Positions 1,777 to 16,052 of a stretch of DNA of 37,950 nt are shown piece after piece. Location of the stretch: positions 1 through 37,950 of the forward strand of contig JAIOPP010000157.1 of NCBI GenBank assembly GCA_021413845.1, given 5' to 3'. The stretch's first letter is position 1. Every line of letters begins with the position of its first letter. Source of the stretch: Planctomycetia bacterium (GTDB lineage Bacteria; Planctomycetota; Planctomycetia; Pirellulales; PNKZ01). Made by a program: the position numbers and the translations under genes. The notes under the pieces were generated by a model, which was not told the origin of the DNA, searched no databases, and was given only the letters and a program-made list of their open reading frames with translations.

Positions 1777-1881
1777 TCACCGGCGTCGAGCGTCGGTGCG
1801 ACGAACTATTCGGCGCGTCCGAGGCCGAATGAGAAGTTGCAAAGCGTAGTAGGTGGCGGCGTTGAAGAGGACGATGAACAT
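1777..1881 (-). CDS. 34-residue membrane microprotein (MFxxLFN family)
   Basis: It starts at ATG 1881 behind AAAGGA with 9 bases of spacing. The product has a hydrophobic segment (MFIVLFNAATYYALQL) followed by an Arg-rich tail (PRTRR ... RRR), the pattern of a small inner-membrane protein with a positive cytoplasmic end. The same N-terminal signature (MFxxLFNxATYxALQLxxxP, then RTRR) begins the frame at 16053, which supports translation of both. A copy of the shared promoter motif (1931-1963) ends 50 nt before this start, as at 16053. Function unknown. Confidence 0.6.
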   Translation of the reverse strand: MFIVLFNAATYYALQLLIRPRTRRIVRRTDARRR

Positions 1882-1930
1882 GGCGGTGGATCCTTTCATA
1901 CAAGTACGTCGGAAATCAAACTCGTGCAGA

Positions 1931-1963
1931 GAAAGTACGCGGCGATTTAAATAATCTGACGCC
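1931..1963 (-). promoter_or_regulatory. Shared two-block promoter motif, site D
   Basis: On the minus strand it reads CGTCA (1961-1957), 17 nt, CGTAC (1939-1935), then TTTC. It lies 50 nt before the microprotein start at 1881 and just after the lipase stop. It is a member of the motif family described in the findings. Confidence 0.6.
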
Positions 1964-1971
1964 GATAATTG

Positions 1972-3048
1972 TTAGGGACGTTCGTTTTCGGCGAGCGCGC
2001 CGGTCGGTGCGAGACTCAGCCGTTGCACCGTCCGTTGACTATCGAGGTATTGCAGGCAATGAATCCGTCTCTGACGATCGGCAAGTAGACAAGCGTCGAA
2101 GCCTTCGCCGTTCGAACTAGCCGGCGTAACCGAGATGACGCGCTTTCCGTCGGCGTTAAGTTCGTCGCGCGCTGTTATGGAGCGGCGTAGCCACGGCCGA
2201 TCCGTCGCCGCGTCGTCCAAGTCGTCGAGTGCAAGGTAGCGTCGAAACAAGTCGAATTCGCCGAGTTGAAGCATTCCTGCCACAACGTCGACGACACGTG
2301 AGTGATCGACCCCCTGAACCAAGAAGCATTCGTCCGCCGTAAGTGCCGTGCGATTGAGGCCTAGCGGGTCAGTCGCCGCTCGAAAGCTCAAAGAGCGTCG
2401 CGCATGAGCGGCGAAGTCGATCAAGCCAGGCGTGCGCGGATCGAACTCGGAACTGCCGCCGTACGGGAACCCGGCGGGGACGTCGATGGCGGGATCGAGC
2501 GCGAGGAGCGTTTCCACCCGACCGTATCGAGCAGCCAGCCGATCGGCGACATACGCACCAAAACTGTGGCCGACGATATTAAGTCGCGAGCCGTCGATGC
2601 GTCGATCGACTAAGCTTTGGTAGACCCAAGCGGCCACGGTGTCGATATGGTTTTCGGCCTGGGCCCAAGCTCCAAAACGACTTTTTGCGGCGTCACTCCA
2701 ATCCAAGAGAAGGACTTGCGTTTCGGGCGTTGCGGCGGCCAATGTGTCTGCGAGCGGACGCATCCGCTCGGGACCGGAGTTGTTGCCGTGAATGACGAGC
2801 CAAATTCGTCCATCGGCAAGAAGCGGTCGGGCATCAAGAGAGTGAATGTTGATCTCTTGCCCCGAGGCGAGTCGCCCGTCGGCAATGGCATGTACCTCGT
2901 CCATCGCACGCGCTGCCGAGACAAACAACGCGCCTGCTCCGGCATGAACGCAGGTCAAGATGCAGAATAGAGCGGTCATCGCACGGAGACGGCACGCGGC
3001 AAACGTTGCACAGAAAAACGTCGTCAGGCTGAATTGCGAGGCTCTCAT
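1972..3048 (-). CDS. Exported lipase of the pancreatic-lipase type (alpha/beta hydrolase)
   Basis: The protein has 358 residues with an N-terminal hydrophobic export signal (about residues 24-46). The strand WLVIHGNN (83-90) supplies the oxyanion-hole region, GHSFGAYVA holds the nucleophile Ser162, LALDPA holds the acid Asp185, and VDHSRVVD holds His249. This Ser/Asp/His order with LDPA and a late DHS is that of the animal pancreatic-lipase family rather than ordinary bacterial esterases. It probably cleaves lipid or other esters outside the cytoplasm; the substrate is unknown. The gene starts 43 nt after a shared-motif promoter (3091-3123) and shows no terminator before the next promoter. 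The residues after about 260 match nothing I recognise. Confidence 0.75.
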   Translation of the reverse strand: MRASQFSLTTFFCATFAACRLRAMTALFCILTCVHAGAGALFVSAARAMDEVHAIADGRLASGQEINIHSLDARPLLADGRIWLVIHGNNSGPERMRPLADTLAAATPETQVLLLDWSDAAKSRFGAWAQAENHIDTVAAWVYQSLVDRRIDGSRLNIVGHSFGAYVADRLAARYGRVETLLALDPAIDVPAGFPYGGSSEFDPRTPGLIDFAAHARRSLSFRAATDPLGLNRTALTADECFLVQGVDHSRVVDVVAGMLQLGEFDLFRRYLALDDLDDAATDRPWLRRSITARDELNADGKRVISVTPASSNGEGFDACLLADRQRRIHCLQYLDSQRTVQRLSLAPTGALAENERP

Positions 3049-3090
3049 CGTTCGTTCCTCTTTCGGTGTGATCTACTCGGTGTATCCGTA

Positions 3091-3123
3091 TGAGAGTACG
3101 AGCCAAGCCTGCGAAACCTGACG
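3091..3123 (-). promoter_or_regulatory. Shared two-block promoter motif, site E
   Basis: Minus strand CGTCA (3123-3119), 18 nt, CGTAC (3100-3096), then TCTCA. It ends 43 nt before the lipase start and lies between the terminator of the upstream TPR gene and the lipase. Confidence 0.6.
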
Positions 3124-3133
3124 TGTGCAAACG

Positions 3134-3163
3134 AAAAAAACGCGAGGTGGGAAGCCTCGCGTT
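3134..3163 (-). terminator. Rho-independent terminator after the TPR gene
   Basis: A 9-bp stem (AACGCGAGG with its complement, 3139-3163) with a 7-base loop is followed on the minus strand by seven T residues (3140-3134). It ends the transcript of the gene at 3208-3828. Confidence 0.8.
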
Positions 3164-3207
3164 CGACGTCCTTTTGGACGAAATGGGATACCGCTTATCA
3201 ATTCGAC

Positions 3208-3828
3208 TTACGGCTTCACGCCCTGCGGAACTTGCCCGCAACCGCAATCCGCTTCGAAGGACGTCGGTGCAATCTGCGGCAAGTACATCTTCAGCGCGAG
3301 TTCGCTGCAACGTTGGTCGAACTCGACTTGCCGCGGCGCCGGAACCGAACCCACGGCAAGATATCGCTGCGCAAGCGCTTGGAAGATGTTTCCTGCTTCG
3401 ACTTCGGCCGCCGCCAAGGTCAGCAGGTAGTACGGCCGCGCTTGGGCGTCGTGCATCTGCGCCAGGTCGACGGCCCGGCGCGCGTGGAGCAGCGCTTTAT
3501 CAGTGTCGCGCCGTTTAACATCGGGACAGGTGGCGTAGATCCACGCCACTTCATTATGGGCCTCCGCGTGGTTTGCGTCGGCGGCGAGAACTTTCTCGAA
3601 CTGGACGACGGCTTCGCCATGCAGACCCGTGGCCGCCAGAGCCTTCCCGCGGTTGAGATGCTGTTGCCGGAGCCCGAGCGACGCCTTCGCGGGCTCGAGC
3701 ACCTGACCGGCGGTAATACCGGTGAAATCAAGGGCCCGCGCTGAACCGGCCGACGACAAGCTCGATGCCACAAGAACGAGCAAGGTAAGGCGAAACGACC
3801 CATTCAGTAGTAAAGCGAAAGCGTTCAT
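3208..3828 (-). CDS. Exported TPR protein, 206 residues
   Basis: The start at 3828 has AAGGAG at good spacing. A signal peptide (about 1-33, ending in SAGSARA) is followed by TPR helices: HLNRGKALAATGLHGEAVVQFEKVL and AEAHNEVAWIYATCPD (about 55-105). The motif AWIYATCPD, then DxxKALxxARRA, is common in planctomycete TPR proteins and recurs near the C-terminus of the 774-residue neighbour. A Cys pair (CGCG) lies near the end. It likely acts as a protein-protein scaffold in the periplasm. It has its own terminator, and its nearest upstream shared-motif promoter is 283 nt away across a strong hairpin. Confidence 0.7.
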   Translation of the reverse strand: MNAFALLLNGSFRLTLLVLVASSLSSAGSARALDFTGITAGQVLEPAKASLGLRQQHLNRGKALAATGLHGEAVVQFEKVLAADANHAEAHNEVAWIYATCPDVKRRDTDKALLHARRAVDLAQMHDAQARPYYLLTLAAAEVEAGNIFQALAQRYLAVGSVPAPRQVEFDQRCSELALKMYLPQIAPTSFEADCGCGQVPQGVKP

Positions 3829-3926
3829 GACAGGCTCCTTCAGATTACGGAAAAAAGGGAATGGTTGCGGACAACGAACATTACGGATCGAAGGAGCAGT
3901 TCCTGACGCAACTTTTCCTTGAGGCG

Positions 3927-3971
3927 CAAACTAACGAGCGTGCGACTCGGTGTCGCACGCTCGTTAGTTTG
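3927..3971. repeat. Perfect 20-bp hairpin with a 5-base loop
   Basis: Arms 3927-3946 and 3952-3971 are exact complements, with loop TCGGT. No T-run follows on either strand. On the minus strand it sits after a 16-codon frame (4009-4059) and before the TPR gene start at 3828. It could stop or attenuate transcription from promoter C, or protect an RNA end. Confidence 0.75.
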
Positions 3972-4008
3972 TACAGACCAAGCGAAGCGCGAGCAGCGTC
4001 ATTCCCAG

Positions 4009-4059
4009 CTACGCGGCCCACCAGAACGATGCACAAAACGAACGGCTGCGAGCCGACAT
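4009..4059 (-). CDS. Possible 16-residue leader peptide
   Basis: ATG at 4059 lies 52 nt after the promoter motif 4111-4145, the same distance as for annotated genes of this set. The frame ends FCASFWWAA. There is no Shine-Dalgarno sequence, no homologue in the window and only 16 codons, so translation is unproven. The strong hairpin follows 38 nt after its stop. Confidence 0.25.
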   Translation of the reverse strand: MSARSRSFCASFWWAA

Positions 4060-4110
4060 GGTAAAACTTTTCGAATGAACTTGCAGAGGCGGGGAGCTAT
4101 CGACGTTCGC

Positions 4111-4145
4111 AGAGAGTACGAGCCGCTGCGGCCGCTTCTGACGCC
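4111..4145 (-). promoter_or_regulatory. Shared two-block promoter motif, site C
   Basis: Minus strand CGTCA (4143-4139), 18 nt, CGTAC (4120-4116), then TCTCT. It lies just after the terminator of the 774-residue TPR gene and reads toward the leader frame, the hairpin and the TPR gene at 3208-3828. Confidence 0.6.
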
Positions 4146-4165
4146 GATTTCCGCTCGCTGCGCGC

Positions 4166-4197
4166 AAAAAAGGGTGCGAGGCAATTGCCTCGCACCC
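4166..4197 (-). terminator. Rho-independent terminator of the 774-residue TPR gene
   Basis: A palindrome with 11-bp arms (GGGTGCGAGGC) around AATT spans 4172-4197. On the minus strand it is followed by six T residues (4171-4166). It lies 32 nt after the stop at 4229. Confidence 0.85.
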
Positions 4198-4228
4198 TGC
4201 AAATTCTCTTCGAAGTCCGCCGTAGTCG

Positions 4229-6553
4229 TCACTCACGGAACGGTTTCTTCGCTGCGTAGAGCTTCAGCCGAGTTTGATATTCAGCCTTATCGGAGGGGGG
4301 CGCTGCGTCCACAATGAGTTTTTGTATCTCCAGCGCTTTGTCGAAATCGCCGACTTCGGCGAGAGCTGCCGCAAAGGTGTCTAGATAGGATAAATTCTTC
4401 CAGTCCGTATTTTTTTTGCAGGCCGTGCGAGCCATATCGAGCGCTAATCCACCGTGTCGGTACTTTTCGTCGAGGCAGGTAGCGTAGATCCAAGCCACGA
4501 GGTTGTAGGCACCTCCGTCATCTCCGTTAAGCGTGAAGGACCTTATGAGGTCTTCCAATGCTCGCTGATACTGCTTTTGACGATACCATGCGTGGCCTCG
4601 CGCATGGTAAATCCAACCCGACGGTTGGGCATCAATCCCGGCGTCTTCGCAGAGGGAGATCGCCTTGGTGTAGTCTTCGATCGCGATCGCATATTCTTTC
4701 CGACCGAACCGTAATTCGCCGCGACGCGCGTAAGCATAATAATTGCTTGGATCAATTCGAATCGCCTCGTCGTGATCGGCGGTGCTCTTCTTCTCATCGC
4801 CCAGTGATTGCCAGGCTCGGCCGCGATAGAGATAGGCGTTAGCCAACTCGTCTGGGACGCCGAGTCGAATTGCCTCGTCGAAGTCCGTGATCGCGGCGGC
4901 GAAATCCTTTTTCTCAAATGAAATCCGGGCTCGAAGGTAGATTGCCATGGGTAGAGCCTTCTCCAGTCCGAGACGGACTGCTTCTGCGACGTCCGTCGAG
5001 GCCTGTGCGTAGTCTCCCTTGTCTAGGTACTTCATGCTGCGTGCCAAGAAGTGAAACGCACATTGAGGATTGCGGTGGATGGCCGCGTCGCATTGATCAA
5101 GTTGCACCGTTTTTGCCGCCGCCGCCGCCTTCGCGTTTTGCGCTTGCGCGAGGTAGCTCGAGATCACTAAATCCCAAGCAATCGGAGCTTCGCGATCGTT
5201 GTTATTTGCCCGGTATGAATAGCGAACCACTCGTTCATAATCGCCGAGTTGGAAGAACGTCTTACCCATGCCGGCGTAGAGCAAAGCCAGCTGCTCGTCG
5301 TAGTCGCTGGGGGGGGCCTGGTTCAATAACTCCACGGCATGACGGAACTCCTCGAGCGCATTTTGATATTCGCCGCTTTCACGTAAGGCCATCGCGCGAA
5401 GGCGATAGCCTGCGGCGGATTTCCAAAGATGAACGGCCTTACTACTGTGAACGAGGGACTCCTCAAACCGATCTTGAGCGAAGGCGCGATCGGCGGCGTC
5501 CAGTTCCTTGGTATATTCATCAGGCGGAACGGGGCGGAGTGCGGCGGCACTTCGTTTATCGGCGTTGGCTTGGCTTATTTGACCTTTCCGCTGATACACC
5601 ACGCTTCGAGCCAAGAAATTGTCTTCGTTTGTCGGGTCGAGGAGGATGGCTTGTGTGAAGTCGGCCAGAGCCTGGTCGACTTCGTTAAGAAGGTTGATAT
5701 GCAGAGCGCCTCGGTCGTAATAGATGGCGCTCGAGTAGGGGGCGATCTTGAGAGCATGGGTGTAGTCCTCCCAGGCTTTCTTTTTATCGAGGCCGGCTAG
5801 GACACGGGCGCGAATGCAGTAGGACCGCGCTTCGTTGGGTCGGCATTGAACGATCTTTTCGCAGTCGGCAGCAGCTTTTTCATATCGCTGCAGACTCGCA
5901 TAACAGTCGGCCCGAGCTTCCAAAGCCTTGATGCATTCCGAATCGATCTCAAGGGCTCGAGCGAAATCCGACAAGGCTCGCTCTGTCATTTTATTCCGTA
6001 CGTATTCCTTACCGCGGGCGACGTATTCCGCAGCACTCGTTGGCGCGTTGCACGTCCATACTGTGTCCGCCAAACGAAAGGACTTAAAAAAAGCCGCGGT
6101 ATCTGTCGCCGCGAGAGCCGTCTCGGTGCCGGATAATTTCAGACTTATCAAGGCCTTCGAAGTTCGAAAGAGTTGAACGAGGTCTATTTTGCCTTTGTTT
6201 GAAATCCGATAGGAACGACCCTCAATCCACCCTAGGGCGATAACACTTCCTTTCGTTTTAAATCCTGCGTCATAGCGCTCGAAATATGCCGCCGCTTCAA
6301 TGGAGGAAGTCTCTGAAAATAACCCGATGTGATAGGAGACGCCCTTTTGCTCCGCTACGTATTCCGTTGACCATCTCTCGATGAATCTGTCGTGGTTCTC
6401 CGGAAAACAAATCGAAAACGCGCCGTCTGACGGCCGAAGCACGTAATCGTCAGCCCGAGTGAACGTGCCGCACGATAGCGCGGCTAGTAATACGACGCTC
6501 CGGATCAAGCGTCGCGACGGTTCGCACAAGCGATTGCAAATAACGGCATACAT
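4229..6553 (-). CDS. Exported multi-TPR protein, 774 residues
   Basis: I chose the start at 6553 because it has AAAGGA nine bases upstream and gives a signal peptide (RSVVLLAALSCGTFTRA). The frame is open 90 codons further, but that extension crosses the promoter motifs. After a folded N-terminal domain of about 170 residues there are at least ten TPR units, with typical pieces such as ALSDFARALEID, ALADFTQAILLDP and AITDFDEAIRLG, and near the end AWIYATC. TPR arrays bind partner proteins, so this one probably works as a periplasmic scaffold. No catalytic motif is seen. It is divergent from a dead sigma-factor gene (6863), just as the 725-residue TPR protein is divergent from the live one. 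Confidence 0.8.
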   Translation of the reverse strand: MYAVICNRLCEPSRRLIRSVVLLAALSCGTFTRADDYVLRPSDGAFSICFPENHDRFIERWSTEYVAEQKGVSYHIGLFSETSSIEAAAYFERYDAGFKTKGSVIALGWIEGRSYRISNKGKIDLVQLFRTSKALISLKLSGTETALAATDTAAFFKSFRLADTVWTCNAPTSAAEYVARGKEYVRNKMTERALSDFARALEIDSECIKALEARADCYASLQRYEKAAADCEKIVQCRPNEARSYCIRARVLAGLDKKKAWEDYTHALKIAPYSSAIYYDRGALHINLLNEVDQALADFTQAILLDPTNEDNFLARSVVYQRKGQISQANADKRSAAALRPVPPDEYTKELDAADRAFAQDRFEESLVHSSKAVHLWKSAAGYRLRAMALRESGEYQNALEEFRHAVELLNQAPPSDYDEQLALLYAGMGKTFFQLGDYERVVRYSYRANNNDREAPIAWDLVISSYLAQAQNAKAAAAAKTVQLDQCDAAIHRNPQCAFHFLARSMKYLDKGDYAQASTDVAEAVRLGLEKALPMAIYLRARISFEKKDFAAAITDFDEAIRLGVPDELANAYLYRGRAWQSLGDEKKSTADHDEAIRIDPSNYYAYARRGELRFGRKEYAIAIEDYTKAISLCEDAGIDAQPSGWIYHARGHAWYRQKQYQRALEDLIRSFTLNGDDGGAYNLVAWIYATCLDEKYRHGGLALDMARTACKKNTDWKNLSYLDTFAAALAEVGDFDKALEIQKLIVDAAPPSDKAEYQTRLKLYAAKKPFRE

Positions 6554-6631
6554 GGTGGAAATCCTTTGAGTTCGAGAGACGGGTGAAACGATCGCGGTTG
6601 CCTTCCCTACCGGTACCGCGTCGCAATGGAA

Positions 6632-6659
6632 GCACGGATTCACGTCGCACGGTCTTACG
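6632..6659 (-). promoter_or_regulatory. Possible second shared-motif site before the TPR gene (B2)
   Basis: Minus strand CGTAA (6659-6655), 18 nt, CGTGC (6636-6632). It has one mismatch in the second block. It lies 79 nt before the start at 6553 and nearer than site B1. Confidence 0.35.
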
Positions 6660-6710
6660 CGAGAAATAAAACGCGGCCCGTGGTCGACGTAAGCGGCGGC
6701 CGCTTCAGCA

Positions 6711-6744
6711 GGGAGTACGAGGCTGGCCTGCAGTTCCTTACGCC
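6711..6744 (-). promoter_or_regulatory. Shared two-block promoter motif, site B1
   Basis: Minus strand GGCGTAAGGAA with CGTAA at 6742-6738, 18 nt, CGTAC at 6719-6715, then TCCC. It reads toward the 774-residue TPR gene, whose start is 158 nt further on. Confidence 0.6.
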
Positions 6745-6796
6745 TAATGTTCTGGAAAGCCGGAGCTCGGTATCGCACTCGGAAAACACCGTGATA

Positions 6797-6826
6797 TGTG
6801 CGGTCGTTCGGGCCCTTGGGCACGAT
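6797..6826 (+). promoter_or_regulatory. Housekeeping-type promoter kept before the sigma remnant
   Basis: TGCGG, then 17 nt, then CACGAT, ending 37 nt before the ATG at 6863. The same arrangement (TGCGG, 17 nt, TACGAT, 41 nt to ATG) precedes the intact sigma gene, so this is likely a relic of the same promoter. Confidence 0.4.
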
Positions 6827-6862
6827 TTAAGCAATTCATTTCGCCGGGGCACGAGAGGGGCA

Positions 6863-6943
6863 ATGCACAGTACTTCGCCGACGTTGCTGCAGCGAGTTCG
6901 CGATCCACATGACCAAGCGGCCTGGAAGGTCCCTGAGCATTAG
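6863..6943 (+). pseudogene. Remnant of a second ECF sigma-factor gene
   Basis: The 26-codon frame reads MHSTSPTLLQRVRDPHDQAA before a premature end, against MHTTQPTLLQKLRDPRDQVA at the start of the intact sigma factor (9975). After the shared Trp the sequence turns unrelated and stops. It sits divergent to a TPR gene, exactly as the intact copy does. I take it as the stump of a duplicated sigma/TPR module. Confidence 0.7.
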
Positions 6944-7293
6944 GTTCGTTCGGCAGCCACAGCTGCGTCTGCTTCGCCGTCTGCCGTTCGACCATTCGGC
7001 GAGCCATCGCAAAACCGTGATTGCCTTTGCTGGGCTTTCATCGCGGGTTCCTGCGATCAAACCAAATACGCCGGTACATCGAATACCGGCGGTCACGGGA
7101 TAGTACGGATCGGGGCGCCGATTCCTTACGCGGCGAATAATCAATTTCACGCGATCGGTTAGCAGTCGGTTCGGCGGAGGTGCGACCGCGGAATCCGAGC
7201 CCTATGCCGATGTGGAGGGCGTCGGAGACTGAGACCAAGTCGGTGGGCCGGGCTCGGAGTTCGGTGATAGATACTTGCCGGGAAACGAAATCG
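6944..7293. other. Gap with a lone promoter motif and no firm gene
   Basis: No protein that I can support is encoded here. It holds the shared motif at 7099-7132, a small inverted repeat just downstream (CCGGTA, 7 bases, TACCGG), and a 13-codon frame on the minus strand (7038-7079). It is probably decayed sequence from the lost sigma/kinase copy. Confidence 0.4.
7099..7132 (-). promoter_or_regulatory. Shared two-block promoter motif, site G
   Basis: Minus strand CGTAA (7130-7126), 18 nt, CGTAC (7107-7103), then TATC. No clear gene follows within the usual 50 nt; only a 13-codon frame starts at 7079. It may serve a small RNA or be a relic. Confidence 0.5.
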
Positions 7294-7335
7294 CTTCTCC
7301 AACCGCTCGCGGATTTCCACGAGCGGTTGGAGAAG
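7294..7335 (-). terminator. Strong hairpin terminator after the 725-residue TPR gene
   Basis: Perfect 16-bp arms (7294-7309 and 7320-7335) surround a 10-base loop, 82 nt after the stop at 7417. The T-run is poor (GATTTCGTTT on the minus strand), so it may act as an RNA 3'-end stabiliser as well. Confidence 0.6.
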
Positions 7336-7416
7336 CCGGTCAAGGCATTTCAGCCTAGGGTGATCTTCCGGACGGCCGTTGCTATGTTCCAGGTCGTACC
7401 GGCATCGTCCTGCTGA

Positions 7417-9594
7417 TTACTCTCGTGCGAACTCCGCCGTGACGTCGGCGAGGGATAGCAGTAAGCTCGCTTTCTCTCCGTCGTCGGGATTCGACTTGAT
7501 AAGCCGCAGCGCCGCGTTGTAGGACCCGATGCGTGCGTAGGTGCGCACGACCGCGTCGAGCGCATATCCAGTGGCTTGGTCGGGCCTCGCCGGGAGGCCC
7601 TGTGAGAATTCGAGCGCCTCGGCGGGCCGTTTCGATGCGAGGAGGTAATCGAAGTATGCCCAGCGGCATTTCTCCCAACAGACCTTGGCCTCGTCGGAAT
7701 CACGGGCCTTTTCCTTCTCGTCGCGACGTTCGCCGTATTGCTTGGCAACTTCCAAAGACCGAGTCGCACCGGCCAAGTTCCCCCGACCGGCATACGCCAC
7801 TGCAACCGCTATTACGGTTTGGGCCTGCAACAACTTACCCGATTGCAGCAGCTTCGCCTTCCGGGCGTCGTCGGATTGATCCCAAACGGGGAGCGACTCA
7901 ACGAGAGAACGCCATTGTTGCGCGATCCGGTCGGTCGCTTCCATCGCCAGATCGACCCGATCCAAGTCGGCAAGGGCAACAACCGCCTCCTTGTCGCCGT
8001 ATGAGGCACCTGTGGCGAAGGACCGTACCGCCTCTTCGCGGTCGCCGGATCGAAGTTGCGCACGGCCGATGGAATGGTAGAGCCTTGTTGCGTAAGGCTT
8101 GTTGGTCTTCGCCAAGTCGAGCGCGAGATCGATTTTCCCGGCTTCGGCAAGCGCGACGCCGAGATAATAGGGCGAATACATCTTCTTCGACGTCTTGGCC
8201 GAATAGATCGCCCGATCGAAGTCGCCGCGAAATGCCAATGCGTTAATTAGGTTGTCGGCGGACCTAGCGCCCTCTTCGACGGTGCCGGCGGCTTGGAAGG
8301 AATCGGCCGATTGCTGAAAATGACCGTGAGCGACCTGCGCTTCCGCGATTTGCTCGATAGTCAGCGCTGCGTAGTGGGGCAACTTCGCGGCGATCGCGAC
8401 CGCGTTGCGAATCGTTTGCTCCGCCGCGGCGCGATCGGCCCCGGCCAACGCTTCCTTCGCTATATCAACGAGTACGTCCGCGCTCGACGAATAGCTCCGG
8501 CTTTTGGAATCGGGCATAGTCAGGGCCAACTCGATGGCGCGCAAGGCCGTGGAATGTTTCCCGAGATTCATGCGGTTTCTCCTTCCGTACCGGCCAATAT
8601 CCGAGATCGTCGATTGAAGATGTTCCTCATCTCCCGACCTCATGAGCCGGTCGATGCGCTCGATCGTTTTGCTCGCTTCGGCGGGTCGACCTGCTTTGAT
8701 CTGCAAATCGTAGGTATCGAGTAGTTGGAAAATGCGTTTCCACGAATCGCCCGTGTCGTCATAGGCGAGTTGCGCCTGGGAAAGGGCGGTGTCGTACGTC
8801 GACAACGCGGCGGCTTGGTCACCGGCTGCCGCTTGGGCGGCGGCGATGCAATCCAAAGCGTCGGATTTGTGCGCCGCGCTGTGAATTGAGTCGGCATCGG
8901 CAAGCGCCTCCTGGATCATGCCGGCTTTCAACTCGATCTCGATCAGGGCGCTCAAGCGTTGCTCGTCGGTGGAATGTCTCCGCTTGATCTCGTCGCGTAT
9001 TTCGCGAATGAATACTTGCGTGACCTTAGCCTTGGGAGTGATCGTTAAGTAGGCGCGGTCGTCGTTCAGGGCAAACAGGCTTAGACCCTTCTTGCTATCG
9101 AGCCCCCACCAAAGATAAGAAGGTCTCTCCTCGTCCCCGATCATGACTCCCGAACTGCCGATACTTTCGTTGATCCATTTGAGAAAACCAGCGGCACCGT
9201 TTTTCGACGCGACATCGCTTTCGATGAACTCAATGAATACTTCGACGAGCGTTTCGCCCTGGAACTTCACGTGCACGGCACCGGCATTGGGGTGCGGCAG
9301 GTTGCGGCGCGAAAGCAGGTACTCCGGTGCGTCGGGGCCGCGGGATTGGGCCGCGGGAGGCAATCTGGCGTCGGGAAATGACTTGAGAAAGTCGCTCCGC
9401 GTCATGGCGAAGTCAGACCAATAGCGCAGAAAAGGGTCTTGGGGCGTCCGCCGTTCGATTCGGGCTTTCGAATCGCCGGTGCCGGGACTTTCGGCGCGGA
9501 GCGTCGAAACTCCGACAAGGAGCAGCAGCGGCAGGACGCAGAACAGACGCCGGGCGGCGAACCGCGGCAGCAAGCTTCGTAACGCAAGAAACAT
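7417..9594 (-). CDS. Exported TPR protein, 725 residues, divergent from the sigma factor
   Basis: A clear signal peptide (LFCVLPLLLLVGVSTLRA, about residues 17-34) leads to a domain of about 180 residues with Trp-rich and beta-like sequence. Then comes a long run of TPR helix pairs, for example SALIEIELKAGMIQEALADA and AAAQAAAGDQAAALSTYDTA, to the end. No catalytic motif is seen. The gene starts 52 nt after a shared-motif promoter and is divergent from the ECF sigma gene, so the two can be co-regulated. I infer a periplasmic sensor or scaffold role in the same stress response. The family is common in planctomycetes but not functionally defined. Confidence 0.75.
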   Translation of the reverse strand: MFLALRSLLPRFAARRLFCVLPLLLLVGVSTLRAESPGTGDSKARIERRTPQDPFLRYWSDFAMTRSDFLKSFPDARLPPAAQSRGPDAPEYLLSRRNLPHPNAGAVHVKFQGETLVEVFIEFIESDVASKNGAAGFLKWINESIGSSGVMIGDEERPSYLWWGLDSKKGLSLFALNDDRAYLTITPKAKVTQVFIREIRDEIKRRHSTDEQRLSALIEIELKAGMIQEALADADSIHSAAHKSDALDCIAAAQAAAGDQAAALSTYDTALSQAQLAYDDTGDSWKRIFQLLDTYDLQIKAGRPAEASKTIERIDRLMRSGDEEHLQSTISDIGRYGRRNRMNLGKHSTALRAIELALTMPDSKSRSYSSSADVLVDIAKEALAGADRAAAEQTIRNAVAIAAKLPHYAALTIEQIAEAQVAHGHFQQSADSFQAAGTVEEGARSADNLINALAFRGDFDRAIYSAKTSKKMYSPYYLGVALAEAGKIDLALDLAKTNKPYATRLYHSIGRAQLRSGDREEAVRSFATGASYGDKEAVVALADLDRVDLAMEATDRIAQQWRSLVESLPVWDQSDDARKAKLLQSGKLLQAQTVIAVAVAYAGRGNLAGATRSLEVAKQYGERRDEKEKARDSDEAKVCWEKCRWAYFDYLLASKRPAEALEFSQGLPARPDQATGYALDAVVRTYARIGSYNAALRLIKSNPDDGEKASLLLSLADVTAEFARE

Positions 9595-9645
9595 GGGGGT
9601 CTCCCGATTCCTAAGAGGACGATCAAACTTTTCAACACGCCGGAA

Positions 9646-9678
9646 GAGAGTACGCGGCTCGAGAAAACTCCTTACGCC
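9646..9678 (-). promoter_or_regulatory. Shared two-block promoter motif, site A
   Basis: Minus strand GGCGTAAGGA with CGTAA at 9676-9672, 17 nt, CGTAC at 9654-9650, then TCTC. It ends 52 nt before the TPR start at 9594. Confidence 0.65.
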
Positions 9679-9905
9679 GACGACAAACTAACTTTCGGTC
9701 AGGAGAATGCGGCTGCCGCCTGGTGGGCGCGGTCGGCCTCACCGGGGACGGCCGCGTGCAGGCGGTCGACGGGCGTTTGCGTGATGCGTCTCGGCAAGGA
9801 GGAAGCGATCAGCGCGGTAACCGGTGGGCGATTCCTTACTCGTCGCGGGGCGAGTTCCGGCGAATTTTCGTATCGCGTTGCTTTGGGCCGGGAAAAGCCT
9901 GGAAT

Positions 9906-9934
9906 TTGCGGTGTCCGCGGTCGGAGGGTACGAT
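9906..9934 (+). promoter_or_regulatory. Housekeeping-type promoter of the sigma gene
   Basis: TTGCGG, 17 nt, TACGAT, ending 41 nt before the ATG at 9975. The spacing and sequence are kept before the sigma remnant at 6863, which supports it. The sigma gene itself lacks a good copy of the shared motif, so it may not be strongly self-activated. Confidence 0.4.
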
Positions 9935-9974
9935 TGGGCCTTCCCTTGCCGACGGCGTTTGAGACGGTTCCCTT

Positions 9975-10538
9975 ATGCACACCACGCAGCCGACGCTGTT
10001 GCAGAAATTGCGCGATCCGCGTGATCAGGTGGCGTGGAACAAGTTCGTCGAGCTCTACACCCCGTTGCTCGTCTACTGGGGACGGCAACGCGGATTGCAA
10101 ACGGAAGACGCAGCCGACTTGGTGCAAGACGTTCTTTCGCACTTGGTCCACAAACTTCCCGAGTTCGAATACCAACCCCACAAGCGTTTTCGCAATTGGC
10201 TGGCGACGGTCACGCGCAACAAGTTCATCGATCGGACCCGCAAGCGGTGGGAACAGGGTCTGGGGGGCGATGAAAGTCGGGCCGAGCCGATCGAGCCCGA
10301 ATTGGACGGGTTCGACGAGCAAGAGTACCGGCAGTACCTCGTCCGCCGAGCTTTAGAGATCGTCCGGCGTGACTATCAAGAAGCCACGTGGCAGGCCTGT
10401 TGGCGGTCGGTGACGACCGACGATTCGGCCGCCGAGATCGCCCAGCAACTCAACCTGACCGAAGGGGCCGTGTATGCCGCTAAGTGCCGAATTCTCAGGC
10501 GGTTGCGCGAGGAATTGGCAGGACTGATCGACGACTGA
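9975..10538 (+). CDS. ECF sigma factor, 187 residues, planctomycete kinase-linked type
   Basis: Region 2 covers about residues 15-85: the segment DAADLVQDVLSHLVHKLPEF contacts core polymerase, and FRNWLATVTRNKFIDRTRKR reads the -10 element. Region 4 covers about 130-185 and ends in a helix-turn-helix (SAAEIAQQLNLTEGAVYAAK) for the -35 element. It has no C-terminal extension. The Ser/Thr kinase gene follows at 154 nt on the same strand, the classic pairing of planctomycete ECF-STK groups. There is no Shine-Dalgarno sequence. It is the obvious candidate to read the shared two-block motif. Confidence 0.85.
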   Translation: MHTTQPTLLQKLRDPRDQVAWNKFVELYTPLLVYWGRQRGLQTEDAADLVQDVLSHLVHKLPEFEYQPHKRFRNWLATVTRNKFIDRTRKRWEQGLGGDESRAEPIEPELDGFDEQEYRQYLVRRALEIVRRDYQEATWQACWRSVTTDDSAAEIAQQLNLTEGAVYAAKCRILRRLREELAGLIDD

Positions 10539-10555
10539 AAAATAAACCGAGATTC

Positions 10556-10590
10556 AGGCGTAAGGAACGGCCGGCGAGATTCGTATCGTC
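10556..10590 (+). promoter_or_regulatory. Shared two-block promoter motif, site I
   Basis: CGTAA (10559-10563) in GGCGTAAGGAAC, 18 nt, CGTAT (10582-10586), then CGTC. It lies between the sigma and kinase genes, 102 nt before the kinase start. The kinase could thus be induced by the sigma factor it may control. Confidence 0.55.
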
Positions 10591-10691
10591 TCCCGGGAGA
10601 GAATCACTGCGCGATCGCTACATCAGCGTGAGCAGGCGGTTGCTCTCGGTCCGCGAGTCGTCGTTCCGAGCTTCACCGTGCGAACCATTTT

Positions 10692-13250
10692 ATGAAACCG
10701 ACCACCGCCTGCCCGCCTGCCGACCTGCTCCGCCTCGCCGCCGAGACTTCGTTGGCAGGCGCCGAGTTGGAAACGATCTTAGTGCATCTGGAACGTTGCG
10801 GTATCTGTACCGAAGCGTTTCGCACGCTCAGCGGCAAAGATGCCTGGAGCGAAACGCTACGCAACGTGCCGGCCTTGTCGCCGGCGTCGTTGGAAGAAGC
10901 AGAGGCGGTGGCGCGGCTCATCGATGTGTTGCGCCGCGTCGGGCCGGGCGAGGACCAATCTCTAAGGCGGGCGTTGAGTGCCGAGTCGACGACCGTAGCC
11001 AAGGCCTCTTCCGTCACGACGAGATCGAGCGATTACTCTTTTCTCTCACCGCCGACATCGACGGATGAACTCGGTCGCCTCGGATCGTACCGCGTGCTGC
11101 GGGAACTGGGCCGAGGCGGGATGGGCATCGTGTTTGAGGCCGAGGATCCGGCCCTGCATCGTCGCGTGGCACTGAAGGTGATGCAGCCGTCGCAGGCAGC
11201 CGACGCTGCGGCCAAGCAAAGATTCTTAGTCGAGGCCCGTGCCACGGCGGCGATCGAGCATGAGCACATCGTCATTATTCATCAAGTCGGTGAAGAGGCC
11301 GGTTTGCCGTATCTCACGATGCAATTACTGCGTGGCGAATCGTTGGCCGCGCGCCTAGAAAAAGGTGCGGCACTACCGGTAGGCGAAGCATTGCGGGTCG
11401 CCTTAGAAACGGCACAGGGCCTGGCGGCGGCTCATGCACGAGGCCTGATTCATCGCGACATCAAGCCCGCTAATATCTGGATCGATGCGAAAGGTGATCG
11501 CGTCAAAGTCGTCGACTTCGGCTTGGCTCGAGATCTGACGAGCGACGTCCAGCTGACTCAAAGCGGAGCTTTGGCCGGCACGCCCGCCTATATGTCGCCC
11601 GAGCAAGTCGAGGCGCGGCCGCTCGACGCACGAACCGATCTCTTCAGTCTCGGTTGCGTGCTCTATCGGATGCTGACGGGGCGAAACCCGTTCACCGGTC
11701 AAACATTGGTGAGTGTGCTGAACGCGGTTACGGGGACCACGCCGCCGGCAGTCGAATCGCTGAATCCGCGAGTGCCGCGCGCCGCCGTGCAGCTGGTCGA
11801 GCGTTTGCTGGCGAAGAATCGCAACGAGCGTCCAGCATCTGCCGACGAGGTCGTCGTTGAATTGCAGAAAATCCTGACGACGCAAATGGCCGAGGCATCC
11901 GATGTCGTGCCGCTGCCGGAAACCGCAACCGCCGGTCGATCGAGCAACAACAATCGTCGTCATGTTTGGATCGCCGCAGCCGCGGCCGCGTTCTTCTTTA
12001 TCTGCTGCGGCGCTTGGGTCGTCATTCGCGACAAGGACGGTCGCGAGACGGCCCGCGTTCAGTTGCCCGAAGGCGGCAGTGCGACGATAGCCGGCGAGTC
12101 GGCGACGGCACCGAAGAGCGTCGTCCCGTCGAAGATCCCCGTCGTGGCAGCCTCCGGTTCGCTCAAATGGCCGCCGGAATCACGCAACAGCAAAGCGTAT
12201 TTCGATGCCCAGCGAGCGTTTGCCGAGTGGGCGATTAGTGTCGGTGCTTATATCGCAATCGACCACTCCGGATACGACGCCAAGAGTTCAGAGCAATTGC
12301 CGAAGACCCCTTTCCGTGTTCAACACGTCTCGCTATCCGGCTCAGCTCTGATCAAGGTTACGGAATCCGACCTGGCACGGTTGGAGGATGTACCGGAGCT
12401 GCTTTTTCTGCGGCTCTCCGACATACCGCTGACTTCGGCAGGACAAGAACGGATTGTACGTCTCGACAACTTGCAAACACTGGAGTTGGCGAACTGCGGA
12501 GCGGTCGACGATGTGTTCGTCGATCGAGTCGGAAGTATGACCAACTTAAAGACGTTGGGATTCGAAGATTGCGGCCCAATCGACGAGGCGATGACCGAAC
12601 GGATCGGACGACTTGAGAAATTAACAAAGCTCACTCTCGATAGCTGTGGCTTGATTGATGAAGCACTGAAGCCGCTGGCTGGGCTACGGGAAATGGAATA
12701 CCTGTCCTTCCAGGACAACAAACAACTCACCGACGAAGCCTTCGAGCATTTGCAGGCAATGCGAAAGCTTAAGTGGCTCAATATTTCGGATAGTCAGAGG
12801 ATCCGAGGTAGGAAGGTGAGTTTTCTACAGGGGTGCGCGGCGTTGGAGAGGTTGACCCTGGGTTACAACGTCGATGATGAAGGCTTGTCCGAAATCGCCA
12901 AGCTGAAGACCTTGAGTGTCGTCGAAGCGGCGGGACCGTACACCGACAAGGGGCTCGAAAGCCTAGGCGCGCTTTCGCATCTCAAAGGCTTCGCTATCAA
13001 CTCTAGGAACGTCACCGACTCCGGTTTGAACAAACTGATTCGCAAGTGCCGTCTCACGGAAACGGTTCACATCGGCAATACGCCGGGTACCGACGCAATC
13101 ATCGACGCGTTGGCCGAACAGAAGGCTTTAAAGCGCATTGATCTACCGTCGCGCATCTCCGCATCGGCTTACGAGCGATTGCGTACGGCCCTCCCGGGAA
13201 CTGATCTCGCTTGGCTCGGAAAGCCCGTTCCAGCGACCAAGGCGCCGTGA
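10692..13250 (+). CDS. Membrane Ser/Thr kinase with anti-sigma zinc motif and leucine-rich repeats
   Basis: The protein has 852 residues. The N-terminus carries H32-x3-C36-x2-C39, the zinc-binding signature of ZAS anti-sigma domains. A complete PknB-type kinase follows (about 133-395): glycine loop GRGGMG (140-145), Lys162, HRDIKPAN (254-261), DFG (275-277) and the GTPAYMSPEQ activation-loop end. One membrane segment (about 425-446) leads to an exported part with leucine-rich repeats (about 540-830). I infer that it senses an outside signal through the repeats and holds or releases the sigma factor encoded upstream by binding or phosphorylation. The ZAS-kinase fusion makes it a candidate one-protein anti-sigma/kinase. 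Translation starts without a Shine-Dalgarno sequence. Confidence 0.85.
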   Translation: MKPTTACPPADLLRLAAETSLAGAELETILVHLERCGICTEAFRTLSGKDAWSETLRNVPALSPASLEEAEAVARLIDVLRRVGPGEDQSLRRALSAESTTVAKASSVTTRSSDYSFLSPPTSTDELGRLGSYRVLRELGRGGMGIVFEAEDPALHRRVALKVMQPSQAADAAAKQRFLVEARATAAIEHEHIVIIHQVGEEAGLPYLTMQLLRGESLAARLEKGAALPVGEALRVALETAQGLAAAHARGLIHRDIKPANIWIDAKGDRVKVVDFGLARDLTSDVQLTQSGALAGTPAYMSPEQVEARPLDARTDLFSLGCVLYRMLTGRNPFTGQTLVSVLNAVTGTTPPAVESLNPRVPRAAVQLVERLLAKNRNERPASADEVVVELQKILTTQMAEASDVVPLPETATAGRSSNNNRRHVWIAAAAAAFFFICCGAWVVIRDKDGRETARVQLPEGGSATIAGESATAPKSVVPSKIPVVAASGSLKWPPESRNSKAYFDAQRAFAEWAISVGAYIAIDHSGYDAKSSEQLPKTPFRVQHVSLSGSALIKVTESDLARLEDVPELLFLRLSDIPLTSAGQERIVRLDNLQTLELANCGAVDDVFVDRVGSMTNLKTLGFEDCGPIDEAMTERIGRLEKLTKLTLDSCGLIDEALKPLAGLREMEYLSFQDNKQLTDEAFEHLQAMRKLKWLNISDSQRIRGRKVSFLQGCAALERLTLGYNVDDEGLSEIAKLKTLSVVEAAGPYTDKGLESLGALSHLKGFAINSRNVTDSGLNKLIRKCRLTETVHIGNTPGTDAIIDALAEQKALKRIDLPSRISASAYERLRTALPGTDLAWLGKPVPATKAP

Positions 13251-13408
13251 CGGCGTCCTCGAGACCTTTGCCGGTTGAAAGCCTATAGGCCTGTTCGCCG
13301 ATCGGTTTCGAAAGCGGCCGCGCTACGCCTGCGGTCCCAACCTTCTGCCGGCGATCCACTCAATATCTTCGGATTGTTGAACTTGCCTGCGAAGCATACT
13401 CGCGACCG

Positions 13409-13954
13409 ATGAGCGAGATTGTTAAAGATCGATACTCGGACTTGTATTTAGCCTCTCGTCGAGACAAGGCGGTCGACACGATCTCGGTGACGCGCGCCAG
13501 TGCCGGAACTTTTGAAACTGAGGACGCGTTTCCGTCTCGAATGGTCGAAGAACTTCGCCCGCAACTCTGTTTTGCGTATCGCTTGGCCGTCCCTGATAAA
13601 AATCGCGATGTCGCGTCGCTACGACTCGGTCGGCAGTTGATGCGCGCCAGCTTTTCATACGGCCTTCGTTTCGGCCTACGCCTCGTCGTTATCACGACGA
13701 CCCAGAAGCTCTTTAACTACTATTTGAAAGCAGGCTGTGTTCCGATCCGCTCACATGGATTCGTTCATCCGCGATTGGGGACGCTTCATTTTCCCATGGC
13801 ACTTCCCGCCGACCCGGCTCGCTTCGCCGAGAATCTCGAACGCCAACTGCCCGTCGTCGTGGCTCCACGTCAGCAAGCGCGGAGAAGAAGGCCCGGCGAG
13901 CAGCACCGGCTTCGCCCCCGCGTCGGGGTCAACGAGCAGAAACTGAAAGAGTAA
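13409..13954 (+). CDS. GNAT-like acyltransferase, possibly shortened at the end
   Basis: The frame gives 181 residues. The middle (about 60-120) reads like a GNAT or N-acyl-amino-acid-synthase fold: LRLGRQLMRASFSYGLRFGL, then LVVITTTQKLFNYYLKAGC, the strand and helix that hold the acyl donor. The C-terminal 35 residues are unusually Arg-rich and overlap a coding-like frame on the other strand (13751-14080), so a frameshift or truncation near 13850 is likely. The substrate cannot be predicted. It has no copy of the shared motif upstream. Confidence 0.5.
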   Translation: MSEIVKDRYSDLYLASRRDKAVDTISVTRASAGTFETEDAFPSRMVEELRPQLCFAYRLAVPDKNRDVASLRLGRQLMRASFSYGLRFGLRLVVITTTQKLFNYYLKAGCVPIRSHGFVHPRLGTLHFPMALPADPARFAENLERQLPVVVAPRQQARRRRPGEQHRLRPRVGVNEQKLKE

Positions 13955-14080
13955 GGAAGCGCCTTTTTGTCCAAAGAGAATAAGTTCTCCGCCGAGACGG
14001 CTTGTCGCGCCAGGCACGATCCCGCCCGGAAAGGTCGGCTTGGCGGCCCTCAGGCTGTCGATGCGGATCGCGACATGCCG
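13751..14080 (-). pseudogene. Gene fragment resembling a beta-propeller-type protein
   Basis: A minus-strand frame runs from a stop at 14083 to 13751 with protein-like sequence, including GATSRLGGELILFGQKGASL and SPRLLTWSHDDGQLAFEI. The second piece resembles TolB/WD-type propeller blades. There is no start codon near the 5' edge, and it overlaps the end of the GNAT-like gene. I regard it as a remnant with low certainty. Confidence 0.25.
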
Positions 14081-14162
14081 TTATGTCAGCTATGACGTCC
14101 GACTCGCCGGTGGCATCCAGGCGAGAGTGAGTCCGCAAATATCCTGCAGTTAAATCGGCCAG

Positions 14163-14196
14163 GCGCGTAAGGAACGTCGCCCACCGCTCGTACTCC
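14163..14196 (+). promoter_or_regulatory. Shared two-block promoter motif, site F
   Basis: CGTAA (14166-14170) in GCGTAAGGAAC, 18 nt, CGTAC (14189-14193), then TCC. It ends 52 nt before the ATG at 14248 and can drive both genes that follow. Confidence 0.65.
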
Positions 14197-14247
14197 TTCT
14201 ACGGCGTCTCAAGTACCTTTCAACTTTCGTGAATTAGGAGTTCCATC

Positions 14248-14625
14248 ATGTTCCCAAGCCTCTTTGTCGGTCTGCTTCTTCTGCTCATTTCCTCGGAGTC
14301 GAAACAGGCCGAGCCGATCACACTTTCGGCTGGACGCGCATCGGCCGTTCATGCCGTCGTTGAGTACGCGCCCACTGGAACCGATTTCATGATCGCCGAA
14401 ATCTATACGCACTTGGCCGGTCTCAAGCTGGCGGCCGGCGACGTGACAGGTGCGATCTCCGATTGCGACCTCGCCGTGAAGCTGGATCCGTCGAACATCG
14501 CCGCCTGGAATCTCTTGCGTCGGGCCTGTGAAACTCAAGCAACTCGATGCCCCGGCCCGGTCGTGCCCTCCGATTCTTTGGGGCGCTCAACAGCGGCGTT
14601 ATTTTCTTTCCGCAATGATCAATAA
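14248..14625 (+). CDS. Small exported TPR protein, 125 residues
   Basis: AGGAG lies eight bases before the start. A hydrophobic signal (MFPSLFVGLLLLLISS) is followed by one clear TPR unit: IYTHLAGLKLAAGDVTGAIS, then CDLAVKLDPSNIAAWNLL (about 52-90). The last 30 residues are unstructured. The SUMF1 gene follows after 33 nt with its own Shine-Dalgarno sequence, so the two form an operon under promoter F. Likely a periplasmic binding partner. Confidence 0.6.
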   Translation: MFPSLFVGLLLLLISSESKQAEPITLSAGRASAVHAVVEYAPTGTDFMIAEIYTHLAGLKLAAGDVTGAISDCDLAVKLDPSNIAAWNLLRRACETQATRCPGPVVPSDSLGRSTAALFSFRNDQ

Positions 14626-14658
14626 CCGTCCGTCACTTATAGGCAAGGAGATCAAGCT

Positions 14659-15612
14659 ATGTATGCCCTCAATCGCTGTGCAGCGTTCATCACGATGTTT
14701 TCGGTTCTCGTTATTTTCGGCGTCCAAACGGGTCGTTGCGACGAACCGAAGCCCGGCTCACGGGAGGCGATGACTCGAAATTCAATCGGCATGAAGCTGA
14801 CGTATATTCCCGCCGGCGAGTTTACGATGGGAACGCCAGATCATCTGCCATCTCGCAATAAAGGAGAAGACGAGCATCGAGTCACCATCGTAAAGCCGTT
14901 CGATCTAGGCATTTTTGAAGTTACTCGCGGCGAGTTCCGTCAATTTGTGCTTGAAACGAAGTACCTGACCGATTTGGAGAAGCCTCAGTCGGATTCAGAC
15001 AGAATCATTTTCAGAACAGGGTATCGAGCGGACGAAAAGAGAACGATTCACGACCAGATTTACGATTGGCGATATACCGGCTTCGACCAGAGCGATGACC
15101 ATCCGGTCGTCAACGTCACGGCGGCCGACGCACGGGCATTTTGCGATTGGCTCTCCAAACGCGACGGGAACAACTATCGGCTGCCTACGGAGTCGGAATG
15201 GGAGTACGCTTGCCGTGCAGGATCCACGACCATTTATTCGTCCGGCGATGATCCGACGGACTTGGTCAAATACGGTAACGTTCAGGATGCGTCGTGGGTG
15301 AACGCAAAGATCGACTGGTTTGGCACTGGCAGTAAATACCTGACCAATAGCTTCAAAGGCGACGACGGGTTTGTTTTTACCTCGCCAGTAGGCCGCTTCC
15401 GACCTAACGTATTCGGTCTATTTGACGTGCACGGTAACGTCTATGAAATGTGCCGCGTCGAAGCGAGCGACGATTCGCTCGAAGGGGTACAGATACGAGG
15501 CGGGGCGTGGTCCTGGTCGCCGGAAGCTTATTGCCGGTTGGGAAATCGTTATAAATGGGGCGAAGGAAGACCTTTTTTCAACGTCGGATTCCGCGTTGTT
15601 CGCGAGCGGTAG
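14659..15612 (+). CDS. Exported SUMF1 (formylglycine-generating-enzyme-like) domain protein
   Basis: AAGGAG lies nine bases upstream. A signal peptide (about 1-27, ending GRCDE) precedes a complete FGE-sulfatase domain (about 40-317): NSIGMKLTYIPAGEFTMGT, DHPVVNVTAADARAFCDWLS, YRLPTESEWEYACRAG, GLFDVHGNVYEMC, RGGAWSWSPEAYCR and GFRVVRE. The HPVxxVxWxxA site reads VVNVTAADA and the usual GNVWEW reads GNVYEM, so it is a divergent member. Many planctomycete SUMF1-like proteins lack the enzyme's catalytic cysteines and are thought to be binding domains; catalytic activity is therefore not assumed. It is second in a two-gene operon. Confidence 0.85.
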   Translation: MYALNRCAAFITMFSVLVIFGVQTGRCDEPKPGSREAMTRNSIGMKLTYIPAGEFTMGTPDHLPSRNKGEDEHRVTIVKPFDLGIFEVTRGEFRQFVLETKYLTDLEKPQSDSDRIIFRTGYRADEKRTIHDQIYDWRYTGFDQSDDHPVVNVTAADARAFCDWLSKRDGNNYRLPTESEWEYACRAGSTTIYSSGDDPTDLVKYGNVQDASWVNAKIDWFGTGSKYLTNSFKGDDGFVFTSPVGRFRPNVFGLFDVHGNVYEMCRVEASDDSLEGVQIRGGAWSWSPEAYCRLGNRYKWGEGRPFFNVGFRVVRER

Positions 15613-15660
15613 TCGACGTTAGCGAGTGAAACGACGTCAAGCTCGAGTTCGCTCATTCTT

Positions 15661-15699
15661 ACGGCGAGGCACGTCACACACGACGTACCTCGCCGTTTG
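15661..15699 (+). terminator. Hairpin after the SUMF1 gene
   Basis: A 9-bp outer stem (ACGGCGAGG with its complement, 15661-15669 and 15688-15696) and an inner ACGT pairing, then a weak T-rich stretch (TTGCATTT). Probable terminator 48 nt after the stop. Confidence 0.55.
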
Positions 15700-15971
15700 C
15701 ATTTCCTCGCGGCTCGGGTGAGCCACGATCAAATGCCTCGAATTCTTATTTCGCATCGATTCGAGAATCGAACGGTCCGACGAGGAGCCGTCCGTAGCCA
15801 TAGGAACGGACTGCCGTCGGGCCGCGTCGGACGATCGGGTAATTCGTGTTCTACTCCGTCGCACGACGGCCTGATCGCGACGATGAAGCTCTCCGATGAT
15901 CTGCATGACGGCCGGACGAACGTCGTCGTTACTCGCGGCGCGTCGGTTTGTGGACTTAAAGAAATCTGGAA
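15700..15971. other. Gap, no gene seen
   Basis: Both strands have open stretches, but none with protein-like composition, a start signal or a recognisable motif. A short inverted repeat (CGATTCGAGAATCG, about 15757-15770) is the only structure noticed. Confidence 0.4.
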
Positions 15972-16005
15972 GGCGAGTAAGACTTTCAATCGAGCTGCGT
16001 ATTCT
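15972..16005 (+). promoter_or_regulatory. Shared two-block promoter motif, site K
   Basis: AGTAA (15976-15980), 17 nt, CGTAT (15998-16002), then TCTT. It ends 48 nt before the ATG at 16053, whose product shares its N-terminus with the microprotein that follows site D. Confidence 0.5.
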
Positions 16006-16052
16006 TCTGCGATCGATCGAACCCAAACGCTTCTATTTGAAAGGGGACCACC

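Follow-up and report, generated by a model that had tools for sequence, protein, structure and literature searches.

Many of the extracytoplasmic function (ECF) sigma factors encoded in planctomycete genomes adjoin Ser/Thr kinases, an arrangement found in ECF59, ECF61, ECF62 and ECF217, which we liken here by their description, and in ECF43, where the factors of the pairs EcfP-PknT and EcfK-PknS have their cognate Ser/Thr kinase encoded nearby. According to the available portions of two sources, the DAED motif is missing from ECF43, which phosphorylation activates (PMC8103513, PMC8999054), and the other groups linked to Ser/Thr protein kinases (STPK), also proposed to depend on phosphorylation, retain the region 2.2 acidic motif, or one resembling it, and may act differently (PMC8999054). 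Class I anti-sigma factors such as ChrR, RsiW, RslA and DdvA are likewise encoded next to an ECF gene and share an Hx3Cx2C motif and a helical layout; in the domains with a zinc motif, Hx3Cx2C extends across helices 2 and 3 (PMC7406223, in the part available). Here, we analyse a stretch of 37,950 nt (hereafter, the window) from a Planctomycetia bacterium, contig JAIOPP010000157.1, in which an ECF sigma gene (9975..10538, plus strand) followed by the gene of a membrane Ser/Thr kinase (10692..13250, plus strand) lies amid about ten copies of a two-block motif. Compared with ECF59, ECF61, ECF62 and ECF217, this locus carries an anti-sigma-like domain on the kinase and a local regulon whose promoter letters are described; compared with ECF43, the sigma factor retains an acidic DAAD and its kinase has the anti-sigma-like domain; and compared with class I anti-sigma factors, the domain shares its polypeptide with a kinase, a hydrophobic segment and a leucine-rich repeat (LRR) region. 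In the available text of the literature consulted, including PMC8103513, PMC8999054, PMC7406223, PMC13147305, PMC8567305 and PMC11032199, neither the promoter motif nor the anti-sigma/kinase fusion was found, and the 2021 ECF reclassification or the 2012 planctomycete comparative paper may describe either.

The two-block motif is real. When both strands of the window were scanned with the pattern (CGTMA or AGTAA)-N17-18-CGTAY, all nine sites listed in an earlier sequence-only reading of this DNA were recovered and no further match appeared, three having spacing 17 and six spacing 18; among the other spacings (8-16 and 19-29), 19 gave three matches and each remaining one none or one. That reading had asked how often the motif falls inside genes rather than before them, and all nine sites lie outside the ten main genes, which were chosen by hand and span 79% of positions 1900-16100. 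With matrices built by leaving one site out, eight of the nine ranked first among the non-sites of the window and the site called K ranked second. Profile scores of the nine range from 19.6 to 31.8 bits. Every second block contains CGT, the first block reads GTAAG or GTCAG, and AAC follows the first block at sites B1, I and F only; ECF promoters have AAC in the -35 and CGT in the -10 element, as stated in the available text of PMC8103513.

On the minus strand, site D (1926..1964; 19.6 bits) precedes a 34-aa microprotein gene, site E (3086..3125; 26.3 bits) the alpha/beta hydrolase gene 1972-3048, site C2 (3876..3909; 12.5 bits) the TPR-like gene 3208-3828, with its ATG at 3828, and site A (9639..9679; 28.4 bits) the gene of a 725-aa protein (7417-9594), the -10 starts lying 58, 52, 57 and 60 nt from the respective ATG. 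Site C (4108..4146; 28.3 bits), without a clear gene of its own, lies upstream of C2 and 292 nt from the same TPR-like gene. Site B1 (6705..6745; 31.8 bits) is 166 nt ahead of the TPR gene 4229-6553, and site G (7092..7133; 25.9 bits) is followed after 66 nt by only a 33-codon open reading frame (ORF; ATG 7041). On the plus strand, site I (10556..10596; 27.8 bits) occupies the gap between the sigma and kinase genes, a position common to homologous loci, with 110 nt to the next good start, whereas F (14163..14201; 22.7 bits), before genes 14248-14625 and 14659-15612, and K (15973..16012; 19.8 bits), before the ORF 16053-16889, lie 59 and 55 nt from theirs. The distance of 43-52 nt between second block and start codon given earlier for A, D, E, F and K needs correction to 47-55 nt (last base of CGTAC/CGTAT to ATG) or, from the start of the block, 52-60 nt, and its promoter-like character stands. 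C2, absent from the sequence-only reading, falls within this last range and makes a tenth site; no good start occurs at 52-60 nt from B1, G or I. B2 (6632..6659, minus strand; 83 nt from ATG 6553 of the TPR gene), already described as the weaker site, has CGTGC as its -10, is weak in both the window and the family test, and is doubtful. We also observed that the roughly 860 nt of positions 6554-7416, which hold G and B1, are devoid of a convincing gene, as though a former target had disappeared.

Within its own genome, a draft of 7,079,622 bases in 167 contigs of which the window is the whole of contig 157, the motif is confined to this contig. The weight-matrix scan proposed in the earlier reading returned the nine sites as the top nine matches in 7.08 Mb, a rank that is no proof by itself because these nine are the training sites. 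In the profile search, which scored 150 of 1433 first-look candidates, the next-best matches reached 12.6 bits (a half match outside the window) and 12.5 bits (C2), and no comparable site was found elsewhere in the genome. The pattern CGTAAGN{16,17}CGTAY occurs 15 times, five in the window and ten elsewhere, and its reversed version 14 times, so that the matches outside the window are at background level. In 56 related genomes, three of them of the same genus, the window profile with stricter filters gave a best match of 17.3 bits, below all nine sites. Since contig 157 starts 1.9 kb from site D, the cluster may continue past the contig end. Contamination was considered and is unlikely: CheA of the contig is nearest to that of the same-genus genomes (55-57%, one gene only), and the contig probably belongs to the genome.

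The independent evidence comes from homologous loci (L numbers below). Homologues of the sigma factor show 46-53% identity in several planctomycetes and many more about 40%, and a kinase gene follows within 2.5 kb downstream at 106 of 117 loci (the window included, some contigs fetched twice); at seven of the 11 loci without it, the contig stops at most about 420 nt from the sigma gene. We collected 52 distinct stretches of 70-450 nt between sigma stop and kinase start, excluding the window and cutting at the start codon; a first blind search on uncut gaps had found just the start codon and the conserved first kinase codons, and was discarded. The blind two-block search of the 52 gaps gave GtaAGATT-N11/12-cgCATA.T as the best motif, with a score of 398.2 (397.7 in a second run) against 260-274 in eight control runs on mononucleotide-shuffled gaps; reverse-complement runs scored 329-372 and are not an independent control, because the same sequences carry the same motif. 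The spacing of this family motif equals that of the window motif, which in the same register reads GTAAGGAA-N11/12-xxCGTACT. When the matrix from the foreign gaps was run over the 75,886 positions of the window, sites D, E, K, F, B1, A, C and G took ranks 1 to 8 in that order, C2 rank 10, I rank 12 and B2 rank 64. Gap by gap, with training on the other gaps and 100 dinucleotide shuffles, all 28 gaps whose sigma factor is at least 45% identical scored higher forward than reversed and 25 of the 28 reached p <= 0.05, each held-out gap having shared in motif discovery. The window's own matrix, applied to 37 homologous loci, found strong sites at L051, L052 and L098 and weaker ones at L049, L069, L097 and L104, and did poorly at most; it works only partly on these gaps because the letters drift. 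In more distant relatives, a paralogue of the same genome included, TGTAAG-N16-GGTATTC-like sites lie 41-54 nt before a start (L058-L061), and at others the next start is 17 nt off, distant or missed by a simple caller. Taken together, the foreign motif, the shared spacing and the sites of relatives link the motif with the sigma factor and argue against a direct repeat.

Other observations on these loci stand apart from that test. Dyad counting of 5-mers over stretches of 10-38 kb picked up mostly coding words rich in GC and tandem repeats of 7 bp, left the window motif outside the top six and was abandoned. Several of L058-L063 have a gene of about 455-486 aa ahead of the sigma gene and one of about 1050-1070 aa nearby, with TGTAAG-N16-GGTATTC-like sites before both. 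In the genome labelled G010, three clusters have runs of 7-bp tandem repeats, either near the sigma gene or separating promoter from kinase (L051, 9089-9232 and 10672-10809; L049, 7031-7098; L052, 10378-10453), and a phase-variable spacing arising from them is possible.

The sigma factor itself, of 187 aa, supports what the sequence-only reading said about an ECF gene amid the sites: it matches TIGR02937 with 70.9 bits, above the curated cut-off of 42.9, and Sigma70_r2 (1.8e-13; 50.5 against 24 bits), with Sigma70_r4_2 at 19.1, under its cut-off of 25.7. Its region 2.2 has an acidic DAAD at the position of DAED, the commonest form among homologues (66/105, with 25/105 unread by the script), and hence differs from ECF43, in which uncharged residues containing Ser/Thr replace DAED. 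No match to the promoter profile was found directly upstream of the sigma gene on the plus strand at E up to 10.

What would hold this sigma factor in check? The kinase of 852 aa has a Pkinase domain at 133-385 (165.6 bits against a cut-off of 31.7) with HRDIKPAN and DFG, as in Hanks-type Ser/Thr kinases, a hydrophobic segment from residue 427 and, beyond it, an LRR region at 555-708. Ahead of the kinase domain, residues 1 to about 85, with the motif HLERCGIC, form a predicted anti-sigma-like domain that is new and was absent from the earlier reading. C7, H32, C36 and C39 are invariant in 15 aligned kinase N-termini, picked from motif carriers, and of 105 distinct kinases encoded beside a sigma gene, that of the window among them, 101 carry Hx3Cx2C ahead of the kinase domain; 66 of the 90 complete kinases have a hydrophobic segment behind that domain. 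In its own genome, Hx3Cx2C is present in four of five sigma-neighbour kinases against one of 24 others (Fisher p about 0.001; 29 of 58 kinase matches compared, the misread locus L220 left out; with L220, 4/1/1/24 and Fisher p 0.0009), and therefore does not look general to the kinases of this genome. Pfam zf-HC2 matches 10 of the 15 N-termini (best 4.8e-8), and six PDB sequences matched the profile built from these 15 at E up to 1: DdvA (4e-8), a CHAT-domain protein (1e-6), RslA (1e-5), RsiW (2.5e-4) and ChrR twice (0.005). An AlphaFold2 model of the window N-terminus has four helices (mean pLDDT 74.6, pTM 0.48) and finds its nearest solved structures in ChrR, RslA and RsiW (Z 9.4, 7.1 and 5.0). 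Thus, the N-terminus combines Hx3Cx2C with homology to known domains, as class I anti-sigma domains do. To our knowledge, no solved protein combines all four parts: anti-sigma domain, kinase, hydrophobic segment and LRR region.

How large are such regulons in relatives? The family matrix at 15 bits or more, run over 375 kb around 29 relatives, found four further sites against one with the reversed-column control, and large local regulons are therefore not the rule; about ten promoters in 14 kb are exceptional among the relatives examined. Three of the four precede genes of large proteins with N-termini containing LLEQRSLLSA, PLEERVMLD or LEARMMLAA. Sites resemble each other more within a locus than between loci: 13.2 of 18 letters in the window against 10.9 to other loci, and 16, 15 and 15 letters for the second sites of L050, L052 and L143 against means of 11.1, 11.1 and 11.5. 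Likeness of promoters tracks likeness of sigma factors (Mantel r 0.26, p 0.001, 30 pairs including the window), which suggests that sigma-kinase pairs may have separate promoter specificities, the correlation being weak and in part expected from common descent. The second sites at L050 (18255), L052 (17520, reverse) and L143 (3605, reverse) stand before large putative surface proteins; starts of the LEQR/LEERVML/LEARMML type are presumably a planctomycete export signal. One of these large proteins has an OmpL47-type domain and a match to a Ca-tandem adhesin repeat, and for another no NCBIfam match was found.

From what was computed, namely the motif, its confinement, its conservation with the sigma-kinase pair and the presence of an anti-sigma-like domain, we propose that the sigma factor of 9975-10538 directs about ten promoters within 14 kb, a local regulon. 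At rest, the N-terminal class I anti-sigma domain of the kinase would bind the sigma factor at the membrane and keep it inactive. Some signal, possibly received by the LRR region beyond the membrane segment, would switch the kinase, whose topology and sensor role are putative, and phosphorylation of the anti-sigma domain or of the sigma factor would free the latter; that phosphorylation is the release step is a matter on which we are evenly divided. Freed sigma factor and RNA polymerase would then transcribe the nine or ten promoters and yield a set of probably mostly exported proteins. As site I fronts the sigma factor's own kinase/anti-sigma gene, the circuit would include negative feedback. 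Judging from sequence, the sigma factor very probably reads the sites, we have good confidence that the N-terminus of the kinase binds and inhibits it, and the two statements jointly are likely, if a shade less so. Probably, then, the regulon is unusually large and local, and the ECF sigma factor is held by its own receptor kinase.

Several results weigh against this proposal. Loci L099, L142, L145 and L160 have no kinase gene within 2.5 kb despite remaining sequence. The top score was reached in only two of 16 blind runs, the rest giving 318-372, several of them on shifted parts of the same block. L125, L139 and L144 miss p <= 0.05 despite a sigma identity of at least 45%, and below 45% identity 16 of 24 gaps scored higher forward than reversed and only nine of 24 reached p <= 0.05. 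In the window, C, B1 and G are far from any good gene start. On the side of the kinase, the choice of the aligned N-termini from motif carriers counts here too, zf-HC2 was not found in the window kinase's own N-terminus at E up to 1, and the structural matches are weak by Foldseek E-value (0.23 at best) and, for helical folds, middling by Z score. Lastly, Thr43, two residues ahead of DAAD, could be a phosphosite, and a Ser or Thr falls within the four residues in 5/105 homologues (DASD in two; DATD, EASD and DSAD in one each).

These residues bear on a rival mechanism, in which the kinase activates the sigma factor by phosphorylation as in ECF43 (EcfP/PknT, EcfK/PknS) and its zinc-finger segment only docks, the promoters still being those of the sigma factor. 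In the available portions of PMC8103513 and PMC8999054, STPK-linked planctomycete ECF groups are proposed to be activated by phosphorylation, with Ser/Thr in or around the acidic motif as a possible target, and Thr43 and the five homologues would suit such a switch. The kept acidic DAAD, however, implies that the sigma factor should bind RNA polymerase without phosphorylation, which is why we rank this phosphoswitch second, and the N-terminus of the kinase resembles solved anti-sigma factors in its PDB profile matches; we consider it unlikely. Other explanations leave the sigma factor of the window aside. The sites might serve as promoters for a different sigma factor encoded in the genome, which holds 12 matches to this one (some being pieces of one gene), or a short sequence duplicated locally, given that two targets share the microprotein start. 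Yet paralogues lie elsewhere and comparable sites do not appear there, the paralogue at C69 has a TGTAAG-N16-GGTATTC site of its own, and the window sites agree with the foreign motif of the orthologous gap, which makes this highly improbable. Least credible of all is the alternative raised in the sequence-only reading, a dimeric transcription factor binding a direct repeat of 22-23 bp period. In the window, CGTA or GTA does occur in either block, but the left block of the family, GTAAGATT, is unlike its right block, CGCATA.T, as fits a -35/-10 pair and does not fit a direct repeat; also, the sites accompany the sigma-kinase pair, and A, D, E, F, K and C2 stand at a promoter-like distance from the start codon. 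The -35/-10 reading with the neighbouring ECF factor, favoured from the outset, is thus the best supported, with sites confined to the contig in their own genome and the same spacing in homologous gaps.

The probable targets begin with the 34-aa microprotein (1780..1881, minus strand), which shares 71% identity over 24 aa with the beginning of the ORF behind site K. They continue on the same strand with the alpha/beta hydrolase (1972..3048; Abhydrolase_1, 1e-6), a TPR-like protein (3208..3828; weak NCBIfam TPR matches), a TPR protein of 774 aa (4229..6553, its start taken as 6553 and not 6823) and the 725-aa protein (7417..9594; weak TPR match). On the plus strand are a small TPR-like protein of 125 aa (14248..14625; weak matches only), an FGE-sulfatase (SUMF1-like) protein (14659..15612; 3.3e-47) and the 278-codon ORF (16053..16889) with a microprotein-like start and a TIGR03067-like part at 16461-16889 (5.6e-10; 39.4 bits, just below the cut-off of 40.15). 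The genes served had been described as mostly exported. This does not hold for the kinase, whose single strong hydrophobic segment comes after the kinase domain, and four of the eight other targets have an N-terminal hydrophobic segment by a crude test (19-residue mean hydrophobicity of at least 1.5): those of A (725-aa protein), E (hydrolase) and C2 (TPR-like protein), and the FGE-sulfatase protein. In the target of K the first segment is at residue 84, and those of B, F and D are below the threshold, B and F having signal-like starts by eye. On this basis, the targets are likely to be mostly exported. The microprotein starts behind D (1780-1881) and K (16053-16124) have MF..LFN.ATY.ALQL...PRTRR in common, and a third possible copy lies at G000:C131:17368-17424 (68% over 19 aa, E 0.007).

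In planctomycetes, where numerous ECF factors adjoin Ser/Thr kinases, an N-terminal anti-sigma domain on the kinase would offer the STPK-linked groups with an intact acidic motif a mode different from that of ECF43. The promoter letters provide a handle on regulons that annotation cannot predict, and the sigma factors and promoters, which drift in parallel, would represent a natural series of possibly orthogonal sigma-promoter pairs. If the proposal is true, the N-terminal domain of the kinase could explain how these sigma-kinase pairs work.

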